Source: Thermincola carboxydiphila (GTDB lineage: Bacteria > Bacillota > Thermincolia > Thermincolales > UBA2595). Taken from it: a stretch of DNA of 64,000 nucleotides. The DNA is taken from assembly GCA_016841325.1 (NCBI GenBank), contig JAENZJ010000017.1, positions 1-64,000 of the forward strand. The letters are read 5' to 3'. Every line of letters begins with the position of its first letter. The first letter of the stretch is position 1. This document shows, in pieces, positions 211 to 35,799 of the stretch. The notes below the pieces were generated by a model, which had not been told where the DNA came from, did not search any database, and was given only the letters and a program-made list of their open reading frames with translations. Both the position numbers and the translations under genes were made by a program.

Positions 211-1284
211 ATGGTTGTAAAACAGTTTAAGGAAGAAATGACAGGTTTGGAAAGGGCTCTGGCTGCCCTGTCCTACAAGAAGCCGGACAGAGTGCCTGTG
301 GCCTCACTGGTCTGCGGGGCATCCAGGAGAATCCTCGGGGTTACTTATGACAAATGGGCTACTGATTCCGAGCTTTGTGCAGAGTCAATGTTACAGGCTC
401 ATGCACTAATGGACTTTGATATTTTTGTAACCCTGGTAGACCTGTCTGTGGAAGCAGAATCCTTTGGGCAGCCGGTTATCTACCCAATGGAGAGTACTCC
501 CTATTCTGACCCCAATAATCCGATTCTGAAGTCCCATGAAGATTACCATAAAATTGAGCAGGTTAACCTCAGGGAAACCGGGCGGACTAAAATGGTAATT
601 GATGTGGTTAACAGGATTGCCAAGGCCAAGGGTAAGGAGTGCGGTGTCTGCGGCTTCGTTTATGCCCCGCTGGGGGTACTCGGCGCTATGAGGGGCCATG
701 AGAAAATGTTTGTTGACTGTATCAAGCACCGGGATGATCTGATAGCTGCCTGTGAGGCCATAACACCTGCACTGATTGATTACGCTGTTGCCCAGGTGGA
801 GGCAGGCGCTCATGCAATTGTAATGGATACCCTCTATGCTTCAGCAACCATTATGAGTCCCAAAATGTGGGAAGCCATTGAAGCTCCTTTTGCCAAGCGG
901 ATTGCCGATGCCGTTAAAAAGGCCGGGGGCGCTCTGGTACTGCATAACTGTGGTGGCGGTATTTACTTTGATGTTCAGCAGAAATATACGGACCCTGTGG
1001 CCATATCACATGCTTACCCGGCTGCTGACTGCAAGACCTGGGAAGAGCATGCAGCCAAATGGGGCAAGAAAATTGTTTCAATTGGTTCAATGGATCCCGC
1101 AAAAGTGGGCATGACCCTTGACCCGCAGGGTGTAATGGAATATACCCGGGAGTTCATTGAATACTTTAAGGACTGTGATGGCGGCTTTATCCTTTCAACA
1201 GGCTGCGAATTCCCGCCAAATGGTTCTCTGCTTAATGCAATAGCAATTATGGATGCTGCCAAGGCATATGGTTCATACCGTTAA
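211..1284 (+). CDS. MtaA/UroD-family corrinoid methyltransferase
   Basis: A 357-residue protein of the uroporphyrinogen decarboxylase / MtaA-MtbA family. In that family such enzymes move a methyl group between a corrinoid protein and a thiol or another C1 carrier in the cytoplasm. The zinc-thiolate ligands typical of the methyltransferase branch are visible: H245-x-C247 in LHNCGG and C332 in STGCEFP; true UroD enzymes lack this HxC...C set. The ATG follows an AGGAGGG site at about 197-203. A CobW-like GTPase and a corrinoid protein follow on the same strand, supporting a methyl-transfer role. The natural methyl donor (methanol, methylamine, methoxyaromatic, betaine) cannot be read from this gene alone; the substrate-specific partner is probably upstream of the window. 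Confidence 0.88.
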   Translation: MVVKQFKEEMTGLERALAALSYKKPDRVPVASLVCGASRRILGVTYDKWATDSELCAESMLQAHALMDFDIFVTLVDLSVEAESFGQPVIYPMESTPYSDPNNPILKSHEDYHKIEQVNLRETGRTKMVIDVVNRIAKAKGKECGVCGFVYAPLGVLGAMRGHEKMFVDCIKHRDDLIAACEAITPALIDYAVAQVEAGAHAIVMDTLYASATIMSPKMWEAIEAPFAKRIADAVKKAGGALVLHNCGGGIYFDVQQKYTDPVAISHAYPAADCKTWEEHAAKWGKKIVSIGSMDPAKVGMTLDPQGVMEYTREFIEYFKDCDGGFILSTGCEFPPNGSLLNAIAIMDAAKAYGSYR

Positions 1285-1304
1285 AGGCTTTGGAAGTGAC
1301 GCAT

Positions 1305-1410
1305 TTAACAGAAAGTAACGCAATTAACAGAAAGTAACATTTAACAGAAAGTAACGCAATTATACAACTATATAAGTTAACGCTGAGAATATATAAGTTA
1401 ACACTGAAAA
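1305..1410. repeat. two families of short tandem repeats in an intergenic gap
   Basis: TTAACAGAAAGTAAC occurs three times without mismatch (1305-1319, 1324-1338, 1341-1355), with 4 and 2 bases between copies. A second unit, TATATAAGTTAAC plus a CTGA(G/A)AA tail, follows twice (1369-1389, 1390-1410). All five copies contain TTAAC or GTTAAC. The array fills most of the gap between the methyltransferase and the CobW-like gene. It could be a regulator-binding array or replication-slippage sequence; neither is shown. Confidence 0.85.
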
Positions 1411-1457
1411 GCAAGAGGCAACCTGCAAATATGCCTTTGAAAGGCGGGGGTGGAACC

Positions 1458-2342
1458 TTGAAGATTAAAATAATCAGTGGATTTTTAGGGGCCGGAAAAA
1501 CAACCTGCATAAGAAATGTTTTGAAGAAGGCCGATGGAAACATGGCTGTCATTGTTAATGAATTTGGTGACGTCGGGATTGACGCAGAAGCCGTCAGTAA
1601 AGGTGATGTGGTCGATATGGTGGAACTCCCCAGCGGATGTATCTGCTGTACCCTGGCCAATGACCTGGTGTCAGCAGTCAAGGAGATTAAAACCAAATTT
1701 AATCCGGACCGGCTGGTCATAGAGCCGTCAGGACTGGCAGTACCCTCGGGGATACTGGAAGCTCTGGAGCCGATAAAAGAAAAATATGAACTTGAATTTG
1801 AAGCAATTATTGGTATCGTGGATGCTGACAGTTTCCTGTCCAATGTCCATTCCGGCTTGTTCGGTGATTTTTATACAGACCAGCTTGCCAATTCAGACAT
1901 TATCCTGATCAACAAAGCCGACCTGGTAAATGAAAAGACTATCAAAGCCGTTGAGGAAGAATTGCGGAAATATAATTCCCATGCCATTATGCTGACAACG
2001 GTTAACTGTGAAACCGACCTGCCTGACTTTATCAGGGAGCACGGTACCGAATACCTGCACCTGCATTTTGACCATGATTTTGATTCAGTTGCCATAACTA
2101 ATGATGAGGCTTTTGACCATGACTTGCTGGCTGAGATTATGGAAGAAATGAAGGCAGGGAAATATGGCGTTATTTACCGGGCCAAAGGAATTTATAAAAA
2201 GAGCGGCGGCGGGTTTGAAAAAATGGATTATGTCCAGGGCAATTACGATTTTGAAGAATTCCCCAGTGCAGAAGGAAGCAAGCTTATCTTTATCGGAAAA
2301 GACTTTGACCGGGAAGCACTAAGAGAAAGGCTGACAACTTAG
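1458..2342 (+). CDS. CobW/G3E-family metal-binding GTPase
   Basis: A 294-residue P-loop GTPase of the G3E (CobW/HypB/UreG) class, which load or deliver metals and cofactors. Seen: Walker A GAGKTT close to the N terminus, the CxCC metal motif in SGCICC, the guanine-specificity motif NKAD, and a His/Asp-rich LHLHFDHDFD segment that could bind metal. I place the start at the TTG at 1458, preceded by AAGGCGGGGGTGG, rather than the ATG nine codons earlier, which has no ribosome site. Its position between a corrinoid methyltransferase and a corrinoid protein suggests a job in zinc or corrinoid loading of this system; that is inference. Confidence 0.85.
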   Translation: MKIKIISGFLGAGKTTCIRNVLKKADGNMAVIVNEFGDVGIDAEAVSKGDVVDMVELPSGCICCTLANDLVSAVKEIKTKFNPDRLVIEPSGLAVPSGILEALEPIKEKYELEFEAIIGIVDADSFLSNVHSGLFGDFYTDQLANSDIILINKADLVNEKTIKAVEEELRKYNSHAIMLTTVNCETDLPDFIREHGTEYLHLHFDHDFDSVAITNDEAFDHDLLAEIMEEMKAGKYGVIYRAKGIYKKSGGGFEKMDYVQGNYDFEEFPSAEGSKLIFIGKDFDREALRERLTT

Positions 2343-2370
2343 TTTAAATTATTTGGAGGAGGTTACAAAA

Positions 2371-3033
2371 ATGGCAGACAGGAAAGCAGAATTACTGGAA
2401 GCTTTAAAGCAGGGAGTTATTGATTATGATGAGGATGCAGTAAAAGAAGCGGCTCAGGCTGTAGTTGACGAAGGTATCGATGCTTATGATGCAGTATTTG
2501 ACGGTCTTGTTGAAGGTATGAACGAAGTTGGCCGGCTGTATGAAGAGCAGGAGTATTTTGTTCCTGAAATGCTGATGTGTGCAGATGCCCTGTATGCAGG
2601 ACTGGATATCCTGAAGCCCCATATCGTGCAAAAAGAAGGCGGCGTTAAAGGTGCTGTGGTAATGGGAGTCGTCCAGGGTGACGTTCATGACATCGGCAAA
2701 AACATCGTTAAGATGATGTTCGACGTAGCCGGCTTCGATGTCCATGACCTGGGCCGTGACGTTCCCATGGACAAGTTTGTTGAAGAGCAATTGAAAACTG
2801 ATTCCGAACTGGTTCTTCTCTCAGCTATGATGACAACTACCATGGTTGGTATGAAAGACATCATCGCCAAGATCAAGGAAAAGAACCCTAAGTGCAGGAT
2901 TATGATCGGCGGGGCCCCTGTTTCTGAGGATCTGGCTGACAAGTGGGGCGCTGACGGCTTTGCCAAGGATGCTAACAATGCCCTGAAAGATGCCCTGAAC
3001 ATGGTTAAGGCTCTGAAAGACCTGCAGCAGTAG
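2371..3033 (+). CDS. corrinoid protein (MtaC/MtbC/MetH B12-binding type)
   Basis: A 220-residue methyl-carrier protein. The N-terminal half resembles the helical cap domain of MetH-type modules; the C-terminal half is a Rossmann-like B12-binding domain with the base-off/His-on signature D-x-H-x-x-G in GDVHDIGKN, followed by later elements such as IMIGGAPVS. The cobalamin histidine is in GDVHDIG. It would shuttle a methyl group on cobalt between a substrate-specific methyltransferase and the MtaA-like enzyme at 211. The ATG at 2371 is preceded by a near-perfect TTGGAGGAGG; an in-frame TTG at 2353 lies inside or before that site and is rejected. The activating ATPase (RamA-like) is not in the window. 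Confidence 0.92.
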   Translation: MADRKAELLEALKQGVIDYDEDAVKEAAQAVVDEGIDAYDAVFDGLVEGMNEVGRLYEEQEYFVPEMLMCADALYAGLDILKPHIVQKEGGVKGAVVMGVVQGDVHDIGKNIVKMMFDVAGFDVHDLGRDVPMDKFVEEQLKTDSELVLLSAMMTTTMVGMKDIIAKIKEKNPKCRIMIGGAPVSEDLADKWGADGFAKDANNALKDALNMVKALKDLQQ

Positions 3034-3087
3034 TTTCCCCGGTGCAGTCGGTGAACAAATATTGCCTGCAGAATTTATAAGCAAAAA

Positions 3088-3170
3088 TGTGACAAAGGTA
3101 AACCCGTTGAAAGACGGGGACACAAAGCCATGGGTCTAAGGTACTGTTGCTATGACTGCCAGGCTGCCGG
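3088..3170 (+). promoter_or_regulatory. c-di-GMP-I (GEMM-I) riboswitch upstream of a chemoreceptor
   Basis: The GEMM-I layout is recognisable: AAGGTAAA, a hairpin CCCGTT-GAAA-GACGGG (3103-3118) with a GAAA tetraloop, GGACACAAAGCC (consensus GACGCAAAGC, one change), a P3 helix holding the 11-nt tetraloop receptor as TCTAAG (3135-3140) opposite TATGA (3151-3155), then GCCAGGCTGCCGG. The receptor differs from CCUAAG/UAUGG by a compensating C-G to U-A swap. A 17-bp hairpin follows 5 nt later and the chemoreceptor gene starts 86 nt after the aptamer. Ligand binding is inferred from family resemblance; whether it turns expression on or off is not decided. Confidence 0.88.
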
Positions 3171-3174
3171 ATTA

Positions 3175-5770: not shown

Positions 5771-5800
5771 AAAAAAGAGAGCCTAGTAGCTCTCTTTTTT
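5771..5800. terminator. bidirectional terminator between convergent genes
   Basis: AAAAAAGAGAGC, loop CTAGTA, GCTCTCTTTTTT: a 12-bp stem with A- and U-runs on both sides, so it works in both directions. The last codons and stop of the minus-strand LysR gene lie inside it. Confidence 0.9.
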
Positions 5801-6670
5801 AATGTGTGACAAAAAGGCCAGGGCCGCCGGGGAAAGGTGAACTCCTTTGGGGAAAATACAGAGCAGCTGCCTGTTCATTTGCAGTTCAGGAAAACCGGGG
5901 GCACATAAAAGGCCGGTCTGCAGTTCCAGTCCCACGGTGAACCTGGACAGAAAAGTAATCCCCATCCCAGCCATGACGGCCCTTTTTACAGCCTCGGTGT
6001 CGCCCAGGGTGACAACCCTGCCGGGTTTGATATGGACACTTTCCAGAATTGATTCCAGGGCCTTCCTGGTGGCTGAACCCAGTTCCCTTAGAATAAAAAC
6101 CTCATCAGCAAGCAGTTCCGGTTGAAATGCGTCTGTTTTGGCTAAAGGATGGTCCGGGTATACCAAAAAAAGAATCCGGTCCTCAAGGATTGGTTCAATA
6201 CACAGTCCCGGAGGTTCGGCAATACCTGCGATAAAGGCCAGGTCAAAATCCCTGTTGGCAGCTCTGGCGGCAATTTCATCACTGCTGCCCAGTTCCAGGA
6301 AGGCCTCAATGTTGGGGTGCAGCTTTAGAAAAGTGGCCAGTGGTGTGGGCAGTAAATAGCTGCCCATTGTTGTACAGGCCCCAATACTCAGTTTCCCGGT
6401 ATGCAGGCCCTGCAGTTCCTGCAGGGTCCTGTCAGCCTCATCAGCCAGCCGCAGCATCTGTTCAACATATTCAAACAGCCTCCGGCCGGCTTCACTCAGG
6501 TAAACGCCACGGCTGTGCCTGTTAAACAGGCTTATTCCCACTGATTTTTCGAGGGATTCAATCTGGCGGGACAGGGCCGGCTGTGTAATGTGGAGTCTTT
6601 CGGCCCCTTTGCTGAAGCTGCCGGACCTGGCAATTTCATAAAATGCCCTGAGCTGGGATAATTCCATCAT
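5783..6670 (-). CDS. LysR-family transcriptional regulator
   Basis: A 295-residue regulator with an N-terminal winged helix-turn-helix (about 1-60; ITQPALSRQIESLE is the recognition region) and a periplasmic-binding-protein-like effector domain. It is transcribed away from selD, and the 143-bp gap between them holds a 34-bp sequence that recurs upstream of the membrane selenoprotein gene at 11002. This makes it the obvious candidate regulator of both units. The effector could be a sulfur or selenium metabolite by analogy with CysB/CysL-type regulators, but nothing in the sequence proves this. The start is an ATGATG pair preceded by AGGTGG; the first ATG is used here. Confidence 0.92.
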   Translation of the reverse strand: MMELSQLRAFYEIARSGSFSKGAERLHITQPALSRQIESLEKSVGISLFNRHSRGVYLSEAGRRLFEYVEQMLRLADEADRTLQELQGLHTGKLSIGACTTMGSYLLPTPLATFLKLHPNIEAFLELGSSDEIAARAANRDFDLAFIAGIAEPPGLCIEPILEDRILFLVYPDHPLAKTDAFQPELLADEVFILRELGSATRKALESILESVHIKPGRVVTLGDTEAVKRAVMAGMGITFLSRFTVGLELQTGLLCAPGFPELQMNRQLLCIFPKGVHLSPAALAFLSHIKKESY

Positions 6671-6723: not shown

Positions 6724-6757
6724 TAACTGGTATGATGATTATGCATTTCTATTATAT
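6724..6757. promoter_or_regulatory. putative LysR operator, copy 1 (lysR-selD gap)
   Basis: A 34-bp A/T-rich sequence with the core ATTATGCATTTC flanked by TATGAT and ATTATAT. It matches 30 of 34 positions of 10881-10914. The flanks form an imperfect inverted repeat (ATNAT...ATTAT), the usual shape of LysR-type binding sites (T-N11-A). It is placed correctly for autoregulation of lysR and activation of selD. Confidence 0.7.
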
Positions 6758-6813: not shown

Positions 6814-7857
6814 TTGAAAGAGAAAACTGCTGTCAGGTTGACAAGTTTTTCACCGGGCTCCGGCTGAGCCTGCAAAATAGATCCGGCGGATCTAAAACAG
6901 ATTCTGACCAGTCTCCCCAAAATCGAGGATAAACGCTTTTATACTGAGGACGCTGATGATGCGGCGGTCTTTAAGGTCAGTGAAGACCTGGCAATGGTCC
7001 AGACCGTTGATTTTATCACCCCTGTCTTAAATGACCCCTATTCCTTCGGAGCGGTAGCAGCTGCGAATGCCTTAAGTGATATATATGCCATGGGAGCTGA
7101 ACCGGTTTTTGCTTTAAATATAGTCTGTTTTCCCGTAAAAAGCCTCGCAGTCAGTATCCTTGAAGAAATCCTGCGTGGCGGGGCCGATGTTGCTGCAAAG
7201 GCAGGGGTAACCATCGCCGGGGGGCATTCTGTGGAAGACAATGCGCCCAAATATGGGATGGCTGTTACGGGTACCGTGAATCCCGAAAAATTGTTATTTA
7301 AAAAAGGGGCGCGCCCCGGAGATAAGCTGTACCTGACCAAACCTTTAGGGTCAGGGATTATAACAACAGCCATTGACCGCGATTTAGCCGGGGCAGAGTT
7401 GATAACAAAGGTCTATGACCTGATGGTGGAACTAAACCGCGGCGCCGCCAGGGCTATGCTGGAAGTTGGTGTCAATGCCTGTACCGATGTGAGCGGGTTT
7501 GGCTTCCTGGGCCACCTTTATGAGATGCTTGCTGCAGGCAGGACGGGCGCCCGGATATATACCGGCTCCGTACCGGTCATTGATGCGGTCTGGGATTTGG
7601 TCCGTTCCGGGATAGTACCTGCCGGAACTCATAATAACTACCGTTACCTGGCAGATAAAGTCAGGTCAGATAAAGTACAGTCCGAAACCCGGACAGTCTT
7701 ATGTGATTCCCAGACATCCGGAGGGCTGTTAATTGCAGTATCACCTGAAAAGGCAGCTCAGCTGGAAACATCACTGATTGAAGAAGGGTGCCTGGCAGCG
7801 GCCTGTGTGGGGGAAATCACTGACGGGCCTATGGGTATTATAGAGCTTTGGCCATAA
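6814..7857 (+). CDS. selD: selenophosphate synthase, itself a selenoprotein (Sec18)
   Basis: SelD makes selenophosphate from selenide and ATP for selenocysteine and selenouridine. The reading frame begins at a TTG (6814) behind a GAGG site and passes an in-frame TGA at 6865-6867: residues 15-21 read GSG-U-ACK. This is exactly the active-site position held by Cys17 in the E. coli enzyme (GAGCGCK, from memory), and the conserved Lys follows. The full length is 347 residues, the normal family length. Starting at the ATG at 6994 would lose the catalytic loop. A SECIS-type hairpin follows the UGA by 10 nt. Later family motifs are present (DDAAV, VQTVDF, GGHS, DVSGFG). It is the first gene of a selD-nifS-dsrE unit. 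Confidence 0.95.
6878..6894 (+). promoter_or_regulatory. bacterial SECIS hairpin of selD
   Basis: TAGATCC-GGC-GGATCTA: a 7-bp stem with a GGC loop. The loop begins 17 nt after the UGA at 6865-6867, and G's open the loop, both as expected for bacterial SECIS elements read by SelB. Confidence 0.85.
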
Positions 7858-7914
7858 CCGCATTCTTTTATTACCATAATTTTTAGCACATTTGCTGTTA
7901 TAGGAGGAATTTTG

Positions 7915-9057
7915 GTGACACCTGTATATATGGACTATAATGCAACAACACCCGTTGCTTCTGAGGTTGCCAGTGAAATGCTGCCTTATATTACCGAATA
8001 TTTTGGAAATCCCTCAAGCGGTCATATTTATGGAGCTAAAACCAAAGATGCCGTAATCAGGGGGAGGCAGCAGGTAGCTGATTTGTTAGGCTGTCTGCCT
8101 AAGGAAATTGTCTTTACCAGTGGTGGAAGTGAGGCCGACAATCTTGCCCTTAAGGGAATTGTGTATGCAAACAAAAACCCGAATGGGCACATTATTACCT
8201 CTCAAATTGAACATCCGGCCATTTTAAATACATGTAAAAGTTTAGAGCAACAAGGGTATCAGGTAACTTATCTTCCGGTTGACCATACAGGTACGATAAA
8301 TCCTGAGGATGTAAGAAAAGCGGTGACAAAGGACACTGTTCTGATAACAATAATGCACGCAAACAATGAAGTGGGTACCATTCAATCACTTTCCCAAATA
8401 GGGGAAATCGCCCGGGAGCAGAACATTTGTTTTCATACAGATGCAGCGCAGTCGGTTGGCAAAATTCCCACTAGGGTGGATGAGCTGAAGGTTGATTTGC
8501 TGACCCTGGCAGGACACAAGTTTTATGGGCCCAAAGGTATAGGGGCTCTCTACGTCCGTTCCGGAATAAATATTGAACCCCTTATTTGCGGAGCCAGCCA
8601 GGAGGGAGGATTGAGGGCGGGTACAGAAAACGTTGCCGGTATTGTGGGCTTGGGGAAGGCATGTCAACTGGCGGTTCAGGAAATGGAGCAGCGTGTAACG
8701 GAAATGACTGAGCTGGGCAGGTTGTTTTATCAGCTACTGGCAAAAGGGATTCCGGGAGTTGTTCTTAACGGGCATCCTGAAAATAAGCTGCCTAATACTT
8801 GGAATATAAGCTTTCAGGGTATAAATGCGGCAGAATTACTGGCAGTTGTTCCTGAAGTTGCTGCTTCAACAGGCTCAGCATGCCACCATGGGTCCCAAAC
8901 TCTGTCCCCTGTTTTGGCAGCTATGGGTATTGAGAAAGAAAGGGGAATGAGTTCCATCAGGTTTTCGTTGGGATGTGAAACTAATCGTGAACAGGTTCTG
9001 CACGCTGCTGAAATAATTATTGCAAGAGTCAAAAATATTTTAGGGAAGGAGGGATAA
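7915..9057 (+). CDS. NifS-like cysteine desulfurase / possible selenocysteine lyase
   Basis: A 380-residue PLP enzyme of the class-V aminotransferase fold. The PLP lysine is K202 in AGHKFYGPKG and the nucleophile C323 lies in STGSACHHGS. Such enzymes take S from cysteine or Se from selenocysteine as a bound persulfide or perselenide. The GTG at 7915 has AGGAGG 7 nt upstream; a TTG one codon earlier is too close. Lying between selD and a selenoprotein DsrE, it probably feeds Se (or S) to them rather than serving general Fe-S assembly; no iscU is nearby. Substrate choice is inference. Confidence 0.88.
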   Translation: MTPVYMDYNATTPVASEVASEMLPYITEYFGNPSSGHIYGAKTKDAVIRGRQQVADLLGCLPKEIVFTSGGSEADNLALKGIVYANKNPNGHIITSQIEHPAILNTCKSLEQQGYQVTYLPVDHTGTINPEDVRKAVTKDTVLITIMHANNEVGTIQSLSQIGEIAREQNICFHTDAAQSVGKIPTRVDELKVDLLTLAGHKFYGPKGIGALYVRSGINIEPLICGASQEGGLRAGTENVAGIVGLGKACQLAVQEMEQRVTEMTELGRLFYQLLAKGIPGVVLNGHPENKLPNTWNISFQGINAAELLAVVPEVAASTGSACHHGSQTLSPVLAAMGIEKERGMSSIRFSLGCETNREQVLHAAEIIIARVKNILGKEG

Positions 9058-9058
9058 T

Positions 9059-9409
9059 ATGAAGTATCTCTTTATAGTCAATGACGCTCCTTACGGAACA
9101 GAAAAGGCCTACAATGCCCTCAGGCTGGCCATGGTGATGCAAAAAGAAGTTGCCGCCGATATCAGGGTTTTTCTTATGGCTGATGCTGTTGCCAATGCTG
9201 TAACAGGCCAGAATACGCCACAGGGTTTTTATAATGTTGAGCGTATGCTTAAGGGAATCCTGACTAAAGGCGGAAAAGTCAAGTTATGAGGCACATGTAT
9301 GGACGCTCGGGGACTGAGCGAAGTACATATGATTGAAGGAACTGAAAGAAGCAATATGATAGAATTGGCCAACTGGATGGAAGAGGCTGACAAAGTGTTG
9401 ACATTTTAG
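9059..9409 (+). CDS. DsrE-family selenoprotein (Sec77)
   Basis: A 116-residue protein of the DsrE/YchN sulfur-relay fold. A TGA at 9287-9289 appears to stop it at 76 residues, but the frame continues for 39 codons to TAG at 9407, giving KL-U-GTCMDARGL and a C-terminal helix that ends ADKVLTF. In ordinary family members this spot is CGTCMDARG with a conserved Cys, so U77 replaces the active-site cysteine. A SECIS-type hairpin follows the UGA. It starts one base after the NifS-like gene ends, so the two are translationally close. A likely role is to carry selenium or sulfur as a perselenide; DsrE-like selenoproteins have, as I recall, been reported from sequence surveys. Confidence 0.9.
9295..9328 (+). 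promoter_or_regulatory. bacterial SECIS hairpin of the DsrE gene
   Basis: An inner stem CGCTC/GAGCG (9304-9308 with 9316-9320) carries the loop GGGGACT, and an outer stem ATGTA/TACAT (9295-9299 with 9324-9328) extends it. The loop starts 20 nt after the UGA and opens with G's. Confidence 0.82.
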
Positions 9410-9438: not shown

Positions 9439-9463
9439 TACCGGAGGCTACAGGCCTCCGGTA
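9439..9463 (+). terminator. intergenic hairpin, possible attenuator
   Basis: TACCGGAGGC, loop TACAG, GCCTCCGGTA: a perfect 10-bp stem followed by AATTTTAAGG. It could be a weak terminator between the dsrE selenoprotein gene and the flavoprotein gene, or an mRNA-stability element. Confidence 0.65.
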
Positions 9464-10880: not shown

Positions 10881-10914
10881 TAACTAATATGATAATTATG
10901 CATTTCAATTATAT
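10881..10914. promoter_or_regulatory. putative LysR operator, copy 2 (upstream of membrane selenoprotein)
   Basis: This sequence matches 6724-6757 at 30 of 34 positions, including the unbroken core ATTATGCATTTC. It lies 88 bp upstream of the ATG at 11002, a usual distance for a LysR activator site, and marks the start of a second transcription unit. Confidence 0.7.
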
Positions 10915-11001: not shown

Positions 11002-12126
11002 ATGAAGTTTAACCCATTTAAGTTTCAGGTACCTCTGGCTGCAGGAGGGATCTCATTGATGGCCTTTAATTATCTGCAGTATGCCGTGCCACATGGGGAG
11101 GGCTTAATCAGACTGTCAGATATGCAGTGGGAGAAACTCAGTACGGTTCAAAATTTCTTATATCTTTTTTTGACGGCAATCATGTTGCTTTTTACTGTCA
11201 TCAGCCTGGTTTCCACTGTTATCCTGTTAAAAAGCCTAATAATATGGCTTATTAACAGGGAGGAATATTCCGCATTCATGAACGGGCCCCCGACAATGAG
11301 TATCGGTATTTTTGTCCCCATTGCCTCCATGTCCATGATAGCAAATGTGGTCCTGGCCCCCCTGGCGTTTTTTGTTCCTGAAATATCATCAAATATACAA
11401 TCCTTAATGCTTCCTGGATTGATTTTCTTTGGCTGCCTCTGGTTGATTCTTTTTGCCCTTGAATTCAAGTTTCTAAAAAATTGGCTTACCCGGCCTCTTG
11501 ACGGGACCAAATTAAACTTTGTGTGGCTGCTTGATGTCTTCGCCTTTGGTCTGGTTAACCTGACCGGTACAGGAATAGCATCCATGGCTGCCGGTAAAGA
11601 AGTTTCATCAATAGCTGCCTTTGCATCATTGCTGGCTTTGGGTGTTGGTCTGTTTTTACTGGTTACCAAACTTGGCTACCTGGTTTACCTACAGCTGAAA
11701 TCTGTCAGCCTGCCGCAGGACGCAGTACTTCCCAGCTATTTTATCATGATCCCCATTATCTGTTTGTTTGGTATAAGTCTTCTGAGACTGACCCAGTATT
11801 TACAGATACACTTTAGCTTTAATACAGAAGTGATTTCCTTCCTTTTAATCAATTTTTCATATGTTTGTGCTATTGGCTGGGGTATCTTCAGTGTTTATTT
11901 ACTCAGCAGTTACTTCAGGAAATACTTCTACAGGAGTGAATTTTCCGCAACCCAGTGGGCTATGGTCTGAGCTTTTGTTGGCTCCCAAGTTTTGGGGGTT
12001 TATGTCTACGCAAATTATTTTCCCAATGCAGTTCTTTCCACAGTAAATTATATCAGCGTAATCCTTGCATCTGTCATGTATGCTGTTGTTTTTGGCAAGT
12101 TTTATCAGGCTCATAAGACTAAATAA
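11002..12126 (+). CDS. ten-helix membrane selenoprotein (Sec323), TsoY-like
   Basis: The frame opens at an ATG behind AGGAAGGAG and meets TGA at 11968-11970. Without a break it continues 51 sense codons to TAA at 12124, adding two more hydrophobic helices. Read as Sec, the protein is 374 residues with about ten membrane helices; U323 sits in WAMV-U-AFVGSQ at the start of helix 9. A SECIS-type hairpin follows. The ten-helix plan recalls TehA/SLAC1-type channels, and I recall a family named 'TsoY family (seleno)protein' that fits, but cannot check either. It heads an operon with an HdrE-like and an HdrD-like gene, so a role in membrane redox chemistry or transport of a sulfur/selenium species is plausible. 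Confidence 0.88.
11982..11998 (+). promoter_or_regulatory. bacterial SECIS hairpin of the membrane selenoprotein gene
   Basis: CTCCCAA-GTT-TTGGGGG: a 7-bp stem with one U-G pair. The loop opens with G and starts 19 nt after the UGA at 11968-11970, matching the spacing of the other two SECIS hairpins in this locus. Confidence 0.8.
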
Positions 12127-15641: not shown

Positions 15642-16520
15642 ATGAGAAACCTTTGGAAGGGAGCCATCAGTTTCGGCCTGGTGCATGTACCTGTAAAACT
15701 GTACGCGGCAACTGAAAGAAAGGACATTAAATTTAATTACCTCCATGAAAAATGTAAGACACCGGTGCGGTATGAAAAGGTCTGCCCGACATGTGAAACA
15801 GAAGTCCCTATGGAAGAAATAGTCAGGGGTTACGAGTATGAGAAAGGGAAATATGTAATCCTCAAAGATGAAGATTTTGAAAACATTCCCCTGGCGACAG
15901 CAAAAACAGTTGAGATTATAAACTTTGCTGAACTCAGTGAAATAGACCCGGTGTTTTTTGATAAGTCTTATTACCTGGCACCCGGAGACGGTGGCCAAAA
16001 GGCATATGAACTGCTGAAACAGGCTATGGCAGAAACCCAGAAAGTGGCAGTAGCCAAGGTGATTATCAGGTCCAAAGAGTCCCTGGCAGCTCTCAGGGTT
16101 TACCGGGATTTAATTGTTATGGAGACAATGTTTTATCCTGATGAAATCAGGAACACTGAGCTGCTGCCGGAAGTCAATTATAATGTGAAGATAAATGAAA
16201 ATGAGGCTAAAATGGCAGCAAACCTGATAGAGAGTCTTACCGAGCCATTCAATCCGCAAAAATATCATAATGAATACCGGGCTGCGCTAAGTGAACTCAT
16301 TGAATCCCGCATTAGCGGTGAAGAGGTTGAAGTGGCGCCCAGGGTTGAGACAGGCAGGGTTGTTGACCTGATGGAAGCCCTTAAGGCAAGTATCGACCTG
16401 GCCAAGGAAGAAAAGGAACGGGCGGGAATGAAAAAAGGAACAAAGGCAGAGGCAAAGACAGGCAGAAAGGCCGGGACCGGGTCCGGCAAAGGCCGGAAAA
16501 AGGCTAAGACGGTTTCCTGA
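15642..16520 (+). CDS. ku: Ku DNA-end-binding protein (non-homologous end joining)
   Basis: A 292-residue bacterial Ku. It begins MRNLWKGAISFGLVHVPVKLY, the typical N terminus, contains the Ku core with a CxxC pair in KVCPTCE, and ends in a Lys/Arg/Gly-rich tail (from about 262) as in many bacterial homologues. It forms a ring on DNA ends and recruits LigD. The ATG follows GTGAGGTGG. Its stop overlaps the start of the ligase gene by one base, so ku and ligase are co-translated. The 189-bp gap upstream holds a short hairpin ACGACG/CGTCGT (15502-15518) but no gene. Confidence 0.95.
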   Translation: MRNLWKGAISFGLVHVPVKLYAATERKDIKFNYLHEKCKTPVRYEKVCPTCETEVPMEEIVRGYEYEKGKYVILKDEDFENIPLATAKTVEIINFAELSEIDPVFFDKSYYLAPGDGGQKAYELLKQAMAETQKVAVAKVIIRSKESLAALRVYRDLIVMETMFYPDEIRNTELLPEVNYNVKINENEAKMAANLIESLTEPFNPQKYHNEYRAALSELIESRISGEEVEVAPRVETGRVVDLMEALKASIDLAKEEKERAGMKKGTKAEAKTGRKAGTGSGKGRKKAKTVS

Positions 16521-17542
16521 TGAGAAAAATGAATCGTGATCAGGCCATCAAATGGTTCAGGACATTAGACCCCATGCTGGCTGTCCCGGCAGAGCCTTTC
16601 AGTTCCCCGGAATACATTTTTGAGGTTAAATGGGACGGATTCAGGTGTCTGGCTTATCTGGATGATAACACTATACTGCAGAGCCGCAACAGGTTGGAGT
16701 TTGGCCATAAGTTTCCCGAACTGGAAGGAATAACCCGGTTGATCAGGAAACACCCTGCCATTATAGACGGTGAGATTATCATTATGGAAGGTGGCCGGCC
16801 GTCATTTTATGAGCTGCAGAAAAGGGGCTGGACAAAGGATGTCCGTTCTATCGCCAGGGAATCTGCCGTCAAACCGGCCACTTTAGTTGTGTTTGACATC
16901 TTGCTGTCCGGGGATACGGTAGTCACAGGTGTGCCCCTGGCTGAAAGAAAAGAAATTCTCAGGGAAATTGTTGAACCTGATGACCGGATATTTATTTCGG
17001 AAGGTATCCCCGGGAAGGGCCTGGAAGTATATCAGGCATGTATTGAACAGGAACTTGAAGGGGTAGTCGGCAAAAGGGCTGACAGCCTTTACTACCCGGG
17101 CCGGCGTGTTGAATTTTGGAAGAAATTTAAAAAAGCTCATGAGGGGGATTTTGTTATCTGTGGATACCGTCAGACCCATGAGAATACAGAAAGGGTTGAT
17201 TCATTGATCCTTGGGTGTCCGGTGGGAAACGAAATGGTATTTCAGGGAGCTGTGGGGGTTGGGCTGGGCGGTATAACAGGGCAAAAACTCTACCGGGAAC
17301 TCAGGTCATTAATAATTGATACACCCCTTTTTAAAGTGCCACAGAATGTATCCCGTGGACTAAAATGGGTCAGGCCTGTCATCTGCTGTTCTGTGGAATT
17401 CCTGGAACCGGCCAGGGACGGCGGGCTAAGGCATCCCGTTTTCAGAGGGCTGCGCCATGACCTGGACCCCGAAGAATGTACCGGAATTGCCGGGGCTGTT
17501 CCCTCCCATGACCGGGCAGCCGACCCGGATGACACTAACTGA
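16520..17542 (+). CDS. ligD: ATP-dependent DNA ligase domain protein (LigD-LIG)
   Basis: A 340-residue ATP-dependent DNA ligase. The AMP-binding Lys is K37 in FEVKWDGFR; further nucleotidyltransferase motifs are visible (DGEIIIM, EGVVGK, FWKKFK) and an OB-fold completes the C terminus. It seals ends held by Ku. It stops at a TGA (17540-17542). The frame then continues open straight into the polymerase gene, so the two are a split version of the LIG-POL LigD protein known in Firmicutes such as B. subtilis YkoU. Confidence 0.93.
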   Translation: MRKMNRDQAIKWFRTLDPMLAVPAEPFSSPEYIFEVKWDGFRCLAYLDDNTILQSRNRLEFGHKFPELEGITRLIRKHPAIIDGEIIIMEGGRPSFYELQKRGWTKDVRSIARESAVKPATLVVFDILLSGDTVVTGVPLAERKEILREIVEPDDRIFISEGIPGKGLEVYQACIEQELEGVVGKRADSLYYPGRRVEFWKKFKKAHEGDFVICGYRQTHENTERVDSLILGCPVGNEMVFQGAVGVGLGGITGQKLYRELRSLIIDTPLFKVPQNVSRGLKWVRPVICCSVEFLEPARDGGLRHPVFRGLRHDLDPEECTGIAGAVPSHDRAADPDDTN

Positions 17543-28068: not shown

Positions 28069-28184
28069 AGAGGTTAAAATTGTAGGTTAACATATGGGAA
28101 AAAAATATAAAAATATGTAAGAAAAGGTAGGATTTTTGCAGACAGATGACGAATACACCTCAAAAATACATACCAAACTTTGTT

Positions 28185-28358
28185 CAACGGCAAATTTACC
28201 GAAAGGTAAAGGCGCAAAGCTACGGACCTAGAGGCTTGGTTATGATACCATAATCTTTTTGAGTTATCGGACAAACGGTCATTATATATTTATGATGCTG
28301 GTAACTTCCTTTAGATTATATTACATTTATTAAGAGCTATGGTTGCCGGGCTGCCGAA
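28185..28358 (+). promoter_or_regulatory. c-di-GMP-I (GEMM-I) riboswitch upstream of flgB, with enlarged P3
   Basis: The 5' half is canonical: CGGCAAA, hairpin TTTACC-GAAA-GGTAAA (28195-28210), GGCGCAAAGC (28211-28220), then CCTAGAG (28227-28233), a one-base-expanded form of the CCUAAG tetraloop receptor. The matching 3' half is found about 105 nt later: TATGG (28338-28342) and GCCGGGCTGCCG (28345-28356), nearly identical to GCCAGGCTGCCG in the chemoreceptor riboswitch. The intervening segment would be an insertion at the P3 tip. A terminator follows before flgB. In Clostridioides difficile a GEMM-I switch likewise precedes flgB and turns it off with c-di-GMP. Confidence 0.8.
28238..28260 (+). 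terminator. terminator-like hairpin within the P3 insertion
   Basis: GGTTATG-ATAC-CATAATC, a 7-bp stem with one G-U pair, is followed directly by TTTTT. It lies inside the enlarged P3 arm of the flgB riboswitch and could end transcription before the aptamer is complete. Confidence 0.45.
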
Positions 28359-35547: not shown

Positions 35548-35799
35548 CGGAAATGACCGGGAAATGGCTTATGGTGAGATGTTGTACCGATTTTCCGAAC
35601 TGTCGCCGGAGAAATGTAGCCTTGTTCCTGGCGAAGTCCGGGAACACCGCCAATTCGCCTTCCGTGGCTCAGTGGCGGCGCGGGCCGTCCATGGCCCGCG
35701 TCCCGGACTTCGCTTAGCGGAACAGCGGCGACATATCTCACGGCGCCAGTATAAGGAAAATCTTGTACAACACCTCATCAAATTCCACGGTCATTTCCG
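35548..35799. repeat. 252-bp imperfect palindrome between motE-like gene and fliK
   Basis: Nested inverted repeats fill the gap: outer CGGAAATGACCG (35548-35559) with CGGTCATTTCCG (35788-35799); then 35571-35596 with 35756-35779 (sharing TGTTGTAC and GATTTTCC); then GCGAAGTCCGGGA (35631-35643) with TCCCGGACTTCGC (35701-35713); and at the tip CGCGGGCC/GGCCCGCG (35679-35700). No credible gene lies in 35541-35936. It may be a long MITE-like insertion or an intra-operon RNA hairpin. Confidence 0.85.

Follow-up and report, generated by a model that had tools for sequence, protein, structure and literature searches.

A YchN-type DsrE selenoprotein encoded beside a second selenophosphate synthetase: a candidate selenium carrier

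Within the 64,000-nucleotide stretch of Thermincola carboxydiphila DNA analysed here (the window), the gene dsrE (9059..9409, + strand) encodes a small YchN-type protein that consists of a single DsrE domain and has selenocysteine (Sec) instead of the first Cys of a CxxC motif. Comparison with homologues, rather than protein chemistry, shows the product to be a selenoprotein, and we regard this assignment as settled as far as sequence allows. The gene shares an operon with genes for a NifS-like enzyme and for a second selenophosphate synthetase, SelD2. On balance, its product is best explained as a chalcogen carrier that would feed selenium from the NifS-like enzyme to SelD2.

The selenocysteine codon of dsrE and its hairpin

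The dsrE frame starts with ATG at 9059, meets TGA at 9287-9289 (+ strand) as codon 77, and then stays open for 39 codons up to a TAG stop at 9407-9409. Gene boundaries and the open frame past TGA 9287 had been predicted from the DNA beforehand, and both proved correct on re-translation. Read with TGA as Sec (U), the frame yields a protein of 116 residues, ...KVKLUGTCMDARGLSE...KVLTF, with Sec77-G-T-Cys80 as its UxxC motif. The Pfam DsrE profile (PF02635) covers residues 1-116 of 116 (E 2.6e-26; 92.5 bits, cut-off 22.7). In a search of the NCBIfam profiles, no DsrE selenoprotein model matched the product, which makes it likely that annotation treats genes of this kind as truncated.

The original prediction, a selenoprotein whose active-site Cys is replaced by Sec, implied that DsrE homologues should carry UGA or Cys at codon 77. 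Across fetched genome contigs and whole genomes, both were found: the codon is TGA in 35 distinct homologous loci and TGC or TGT in 78. About 15 further TGA genomes were listed, without a locus, among relatives of a Chloroflexota genome; overall, UGA occupies this codon in more than 50 related genes and Cys in at least 78. Homologues that naturally end at residue 76 had been named as the finding that would argue against Sec. None of the homologues compared ends there, and the Cys proteins run to about 116 residues. In comparisons of the genome with its relatives, pN/pS was equally low on the two sides of the UGA; measured against genome G003 of the same family, for example, it was 0.086/0.505 upstream and 0.048/0.404 downstream. 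By this measure, purifying selection acts alike on the codons before and past the UGA.

Directly 3' of the UGA lies a bacterial SECIS element, whose apical stem-loop (9304..9320, + strand) comprises seven pairs and a GGA loop at 9311-9313. The segment 9285-9335 folds with -15.8 kcal/mol (z -3.74), and 0 of 200 shuffles did as well. A stem of at least five contiguous pairs at a fixed place, about 17-34 nt past U, is present in 34 of the 35 UGA genes vs 2 of the 78 Cys homologues (Mann-Whitney p 1e-17); the Cys homologues in this comparison encode nearly the same peptide. UGA genes with such a stem carry GG in the apical loop of the hairpin, and the sole UGA gene without it, that of G025, has a stem mismatch. 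With the Cys homologues as control, we rejected a chance hairpin. The hairpin with a G-rich loop that had been predicted past the TGA is thus present and specific to UGA forms, and together with the UGA and Cys homologues it strongly supports Sec at the active site. The fixed-position stem count was decisive for this result, the synonymous-shuffle MFE test being weak (mean z -1.26 for UGA vs -0.81 for Cys genes, p 0.006). The stem reads GCUCG/UGAGC in Bacillota and GCCCG/CGGGC in many Chloroflexota, where the 3' arm is shifted by one base; pairing is thus retained although sequence and register differ.

The genome holds SelA, SelB, SelC and SelD. Its tRNA-Sec scored 75.3 bits with the Rfam model, which located it away from the contigs with selA or selB, on which ARAGORN had found no tRNA-Sec. 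Among the homologues' genomes, SelA was found in 12 of 12 with the UGA form vs 5 of 25 with the Cys form (p 3e-6).

We built a tree of 110 DsrE proteins with the U column omitted and the seemingly frame-disturbed G025 copy left out. The UGA forms fall into two groups amid the Cys forms, one of Bacillota (9 rows, SH-aLRT 96) and one of Chloroflexota (25 rows, SH-aLRT 98). These two clades and their differing SECIS registers suggest two separate gains of Sec as the simplest reading of an alignment with few columns; a single gain with later losses is the alternative history, which we do not favour as the simplest. One Chloroflexota relative, G686, carries both Cys and UGA copies of dsrE, on contigs C193 (locus L132) and C8.

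Fold and relation to known DsrE proteins

Fold prediction, made from 19 window and locus sequences, gave the dsrE product a mean pLDDT of 94.6 across all 116 residues. Foldseek ranked YchN first (PDB 1jx7; 45% identity, TM 0.89), with DsrEFH and TusBCD among the matches that came after it. The model places residue 77 at the end of a strand and residues 78-83 in the helix that comes next, so the 39 residues past the UGA are predicted to belong to the fold. By sequence, E. coli YchN is homologous over the whole length (E 3e-28) and colinear to the last residue. It has CKTCTDGRG where the dsrE product has UGTCMDARG, its CKTC being the U77-C80 site with Cys for Sec. Since Sec77 corresponds in the alignment to the first Cys of CKTC, a redox or perselenide-carrier motif is plausible for the UxxC of dsrE. 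With its colinearity and CxxC, YchN is the closest solved homologue; its structure entry comprises six chains of one sequence.

The DsrE-family label of the original prediction is upheld by the full-length Pfam match and narrowed to the YchN type, as distinct from DsrE/TusD proper. TusD/DsrE of TusBCD and DsrEFH have the same fold as the dsrE product, but the latter reaches 36.7 bits with TIGR03012, where the cut-off is 89.25, and no TusB or TusC was found among its neighbours. Identity with TusC was likewise rejected, the product scoring below the profile cut-off. A further relative is YedF, a SirA-DsrE fusion (TIGR03527) whose association with SelD and Sec lyase has been described (PMC5322559, PMC2432076). 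YedF resembles the dsrE product in its DsrE domain with CGxC and in its neighbours, which in E. faecalis are SelD and a class V aminotransferase, whereas the dsrE product is without the SirA/TusA domain and has Sec for Cys. At 20.3 bits with TIGR03527, against a cut-off of 110, it is not a YedF; it may work like one.

DsrE-like selenoproteins with UxxC have been listed since 2005, represented in the passages cited here by two Sargasso Sea sequences and one from Desulfovibrio vulgaris (Zhang et al.; PMC1088965, PMC1794560). These passages describe Pfam02635, UxxC and a predicted SECIS, as in dsrE, a likeness of description and not of sequence, and they report neither an operon nor a function. 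By Pfam02635 and UxxC, the dsrE product belongs to this type. Such proteins also appear in a 2026 review, whose cited passage gives no function, and an excerpt of PMC13188914 presents WP_014524487.1 as a DsrE-like selenoprotein. The selenoprotein class was hence already known; in the literature covered, neither the YchN-type clades nor the SelD2 clade nor the promoter motif described below was found.

Linkage to SelD2 and a shared promoter motif

The nifS-like gene (7912..9057, + strand), encoding a cysteine desulfurase/Sec lyase (TIGR03402, 460 bits, below the cut-off of 530.75), ends 1 nt upstream of dsrE. It is preceded by selD2 (6814..7857, + strand; TIGR00476, 313.6 bits), which starts with TTG and encodes a selenophosphate synthetase that is itself a selenoprotein (TGA 6865-6867, SPGSGUACK). 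The genome has two full SelD: one belongs to the usual selA-selD pair at another place, and the selD beside dsrE is the second. Further downstream, tsoY (11002..12126, + strand; NF047643, 560.8 bits, cut-off 250) encodes the selenoprotein TsoY, with TGA at 11968-11970. TsoY is reportedly to be credited to Haft and Tolstoy 2025. dsrE had been described beforehand as the second Se protein in an operon with selD and a NifS-like enzyme. Both neighbours are there as described; the refinement is that the adjacent selD is a second SelD and that TsoY is a third selenoprotein.

Divergent from selD2 is the gene of a LysR regulator (5783..6670, - strand), which scores 230.2 bits with the selenium-metabolism LysR model NF040786, just below the cut-off of 250. 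TsoY and a selenium-metabolism LysR (LysR_Se/HrsM) are both present at the dsrE locus. Motif conservation and a genome scan identified the promoter motif ATGCATTTCNATTATA before selD2 (6741..6756, + strand) and a second copy before tsoY (10898..10913, + strand). With up to one mismatch allowed, the 3.43 Mb genome contains no further copy. The motif is kept in the LysR-selD2 gap of G001-G003, G055, G087 and G188, and we infer that it is a candidate site bound by LysR. An additional exact copy in G003 precedes a methionine gamma-lyase-like gene (L242, 125-1300) by about 200 bp; the closest relative of that gene's product among the loci, at 68% identity, is encoded in G398 (L165, 2879-4063), downstream of SelD2-NifS-DsrE. 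Between dsrE and lpd, at 9440-9462, lies a perfect 9-bp inverted repeat, ACCGGAGGC-TACAG-GCCTCCGGT, a possible end of the selD2-nifS-dsrE transcript.

In a set of 40 genomes, chosen largely for having DsrE and thus not yielding an unbiased rate, two full SelD occur only in G000-G003, G055 and G398, with the second at the DsrE locus in 6 of 6. These six extra SelD proteins form one clade (support 100/99) with the N-terminal motif SPGSGUACK. We used this motif to search 398 genomes from the phylum, drawn without regard to DsrE, and found SelD2 in 15. In 14 of the 15, the LysR and SelD2 genes diverge from each other; in G117, LysR lies within 3 kb of SelD2, separated by a transposase-like insertion. 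A DsrE-family gene stands within about 4 kb of SelD2 in 10 of the 15 genomes, representing two DsrE subfamilies and 7 GTDB families: six are of the YchN type, and at the same place the other four have a shorter Cys-type DsrE (Pfam DsrE). NifS is found at the SelD2 locus in 6 of the 15 genomes, and TsoY is present in 9. Speaking against a selenium carrier, the SelD2 loci of G012, G188, G329 and G372 have no DsrE, and those of G001, G002 and G055 lack NifS. In G398, the order LysR / SelD2-NifS-DsrE is identical to that in the window, yet DsrE has Cys, so the linkage to SelD2 is independent of DsrE being a selenoprotein. A further point against a selenium carrier is that UGA forms are not beside selD in Chloroflexota, nor in G242, G221 and G150. 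The TsoY family scores above cut-off in 13 of the 398 genomes, and in at least 8 of these a DsrE gene lies no more than about 6 kb away; several families show tsoY in linkage with dsrE, nifS or selD2. An unbiased clustering of neighbours contained antisense artefacts in high-GC loci and was used loosely.

Several other features of the window were recorded. Upstream of the LysR gene, at 211-3033, are genes for a URO-D-type methyltransferase, a CobW GTPase and a corrinoid protein. This set is possibly selenium-linked, since in Methanococcus selenium regulates a set for methyl-selenide transfer that carries the URO-D annotation (PMC11097638). RNA elements at 3087-3171, 28179-28358 and 35596-35753 comprise two riboswitches of the c-di-GMP-I class and one TwoAYGGAY RNA, the last barely over threshold, and genes for Ku and an ATP-dependent DNA ligase, a bacterial end-joining set, lie at 15642-17542.

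Selenium or sulfur as the cargo of DsrE

SelD needs selenide, and DsrE and Tus proteins hand sulfane sulfur from Cys to Cys. Combined with the ability of NifS-like enzymes to release selenium from selenocysteine (PMC3266270), these properties are the basis for reading DsrE as a carrier. The NifS-like enzyme encoded just upstream would take selenium (or sulfur) from a seleno-amino acid, Sec77 of DsrE would accept the selenium as perselenide, and Cys80 would resolve the perselenide and free the selenium, which would then go to SelD2. LysR would control selD2-nifS-dsrE and tsoY jointly, and TsoY may also have a role. The linkage to SelD2, the regulator, the shared promoter motif and the methionine gamma-lyase-like gene point to selenium rather than sulfur. 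The earlier suggestion that DsrE may hand selenide to SelD stands as a working hypothesis, backed by the linkage to the SelD2 clade, which includes Cys forms of DsrE, and by the shared promoter motif; a purely selenium-related role is what the wider distribution of the NifS-DsrE pair speaks against. The EHPA and GSACH motifs of the nifS-like product are common to DsrE-linked NifS elsewhere, and in alphaproteobacteria without SelA (Bradyrhizobium and others), Cys-form DsrE adjoins the same NifS subtype (EHPA...AGHK...GSACH). The NifS-DsrE pair is therefore not selenium-specific, and its older role was probably sulfur transfer.

The NifS-like enzyme itself is consistent with either element. In human Sec lyase, Asp146 confers selenium specificity (PMC3266270). 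The equivalent position, placed via the EH motif around D146 (PMC3266270) and not by direct alignment, is Pro in the enzyme of the window and in most relatives, so the enzyme is probably able to use both selenium and sulfur. It thus does not qualify as a Sec-specific lyase by this residue, and no other signature of one was found in it, the His after the catalytic Cys being common to relatives without selenium.

A relay of sulfur would also fit the Cys orthologues that adjoin this NifS subtype in genomes lacking SelA. In such a relay, DsrE, though a selenoprotein, would pass sulfane sulfur from the NifS persulfide to an acceptor; Sec would then be just a more reactive Cys, and the nearness of selD2 would reflect shared selenium-dependent regulation rather than delivery of selenium. 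Known DsrE and Tus proteins carry sulfur, ArsR-rhodanese genes are found near both UGA and Cys forms of DsrE, and in G221 a UGA-form DsrE lies 2-3 kb from genes for a YedE-type sulfur transporter and TusA (L163, 7581-9108). We nevertheless consider a sulfur relay rather unlikely, as the order SelD2-NifS-DsrE persists in G398 with a Cys DsrE, leaving selenium-dependence of DsrE as no explanation for the linkage, and as a second DsrE subfamily occupies the same place beside SelD2.

Improbable, in our assessment, is a function of DsrE-Sec as a thiol/selenol reductase acting on a compound of selenium or sulfur, such as a selenosulfide, instead of an atom carrier. UxxC is a redox-type motif, the cited passage of PMC1088965 classes DsrE-like selenoproteins as redox proteins, and lpd lies downstream of dsrE in the window; the predicted fold, however, is that of DsrE/YchN and not thioredoxin-like. 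Moreover, G003 and G055 have no lpd between dsrE and tsoY, and the lpd of G001 stands with glycine-cleavage-like genes; we judged the downstream position of lpd incidental. Finally, although standard translation terminates at TGA 9287-9289, we reject as hardly credible a true stop with a functional 76-residue product, or a pseudogene, given the conservation and low pN/pS past the UGA, the SECIS confined to UGA forms and the Cys homologues that read through.

The likeliest history is that a sulfur-transfer pair was recruited to selenium in some anaerobes, and the conserved, presumably jointly controlled gene set probably supplies selenium to the second selenophosphate synthetase. More tentatively, LysR-selD2-nifS-dsrE-tsoY could represent a dedicated second selenium-assimilation unit for seleno-amino acids or other organic selenium. 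In such a unit, the selenoproteins SelD2, DsrE-Sec and TsoY would deliver selenium for selenoproteins in a self-reinforcing loop, with DsrE-Sec as a Sec-based perselenide carrier; we see this as possible, if short of probable. The DsrE-like selenoproteins, thinly documented so far, now include two clades that are well supported and number more than 50 members, and one promoter motif is shown to be common to a small set of linked genes. With a Sec-containing DsrE, a NifS-like enzyme and a distinct SelD2 encoded in one operon, the locus offers a testable candidate for the carrier that may bring reactive selenide to a bacterial selenophosphate synthetase.
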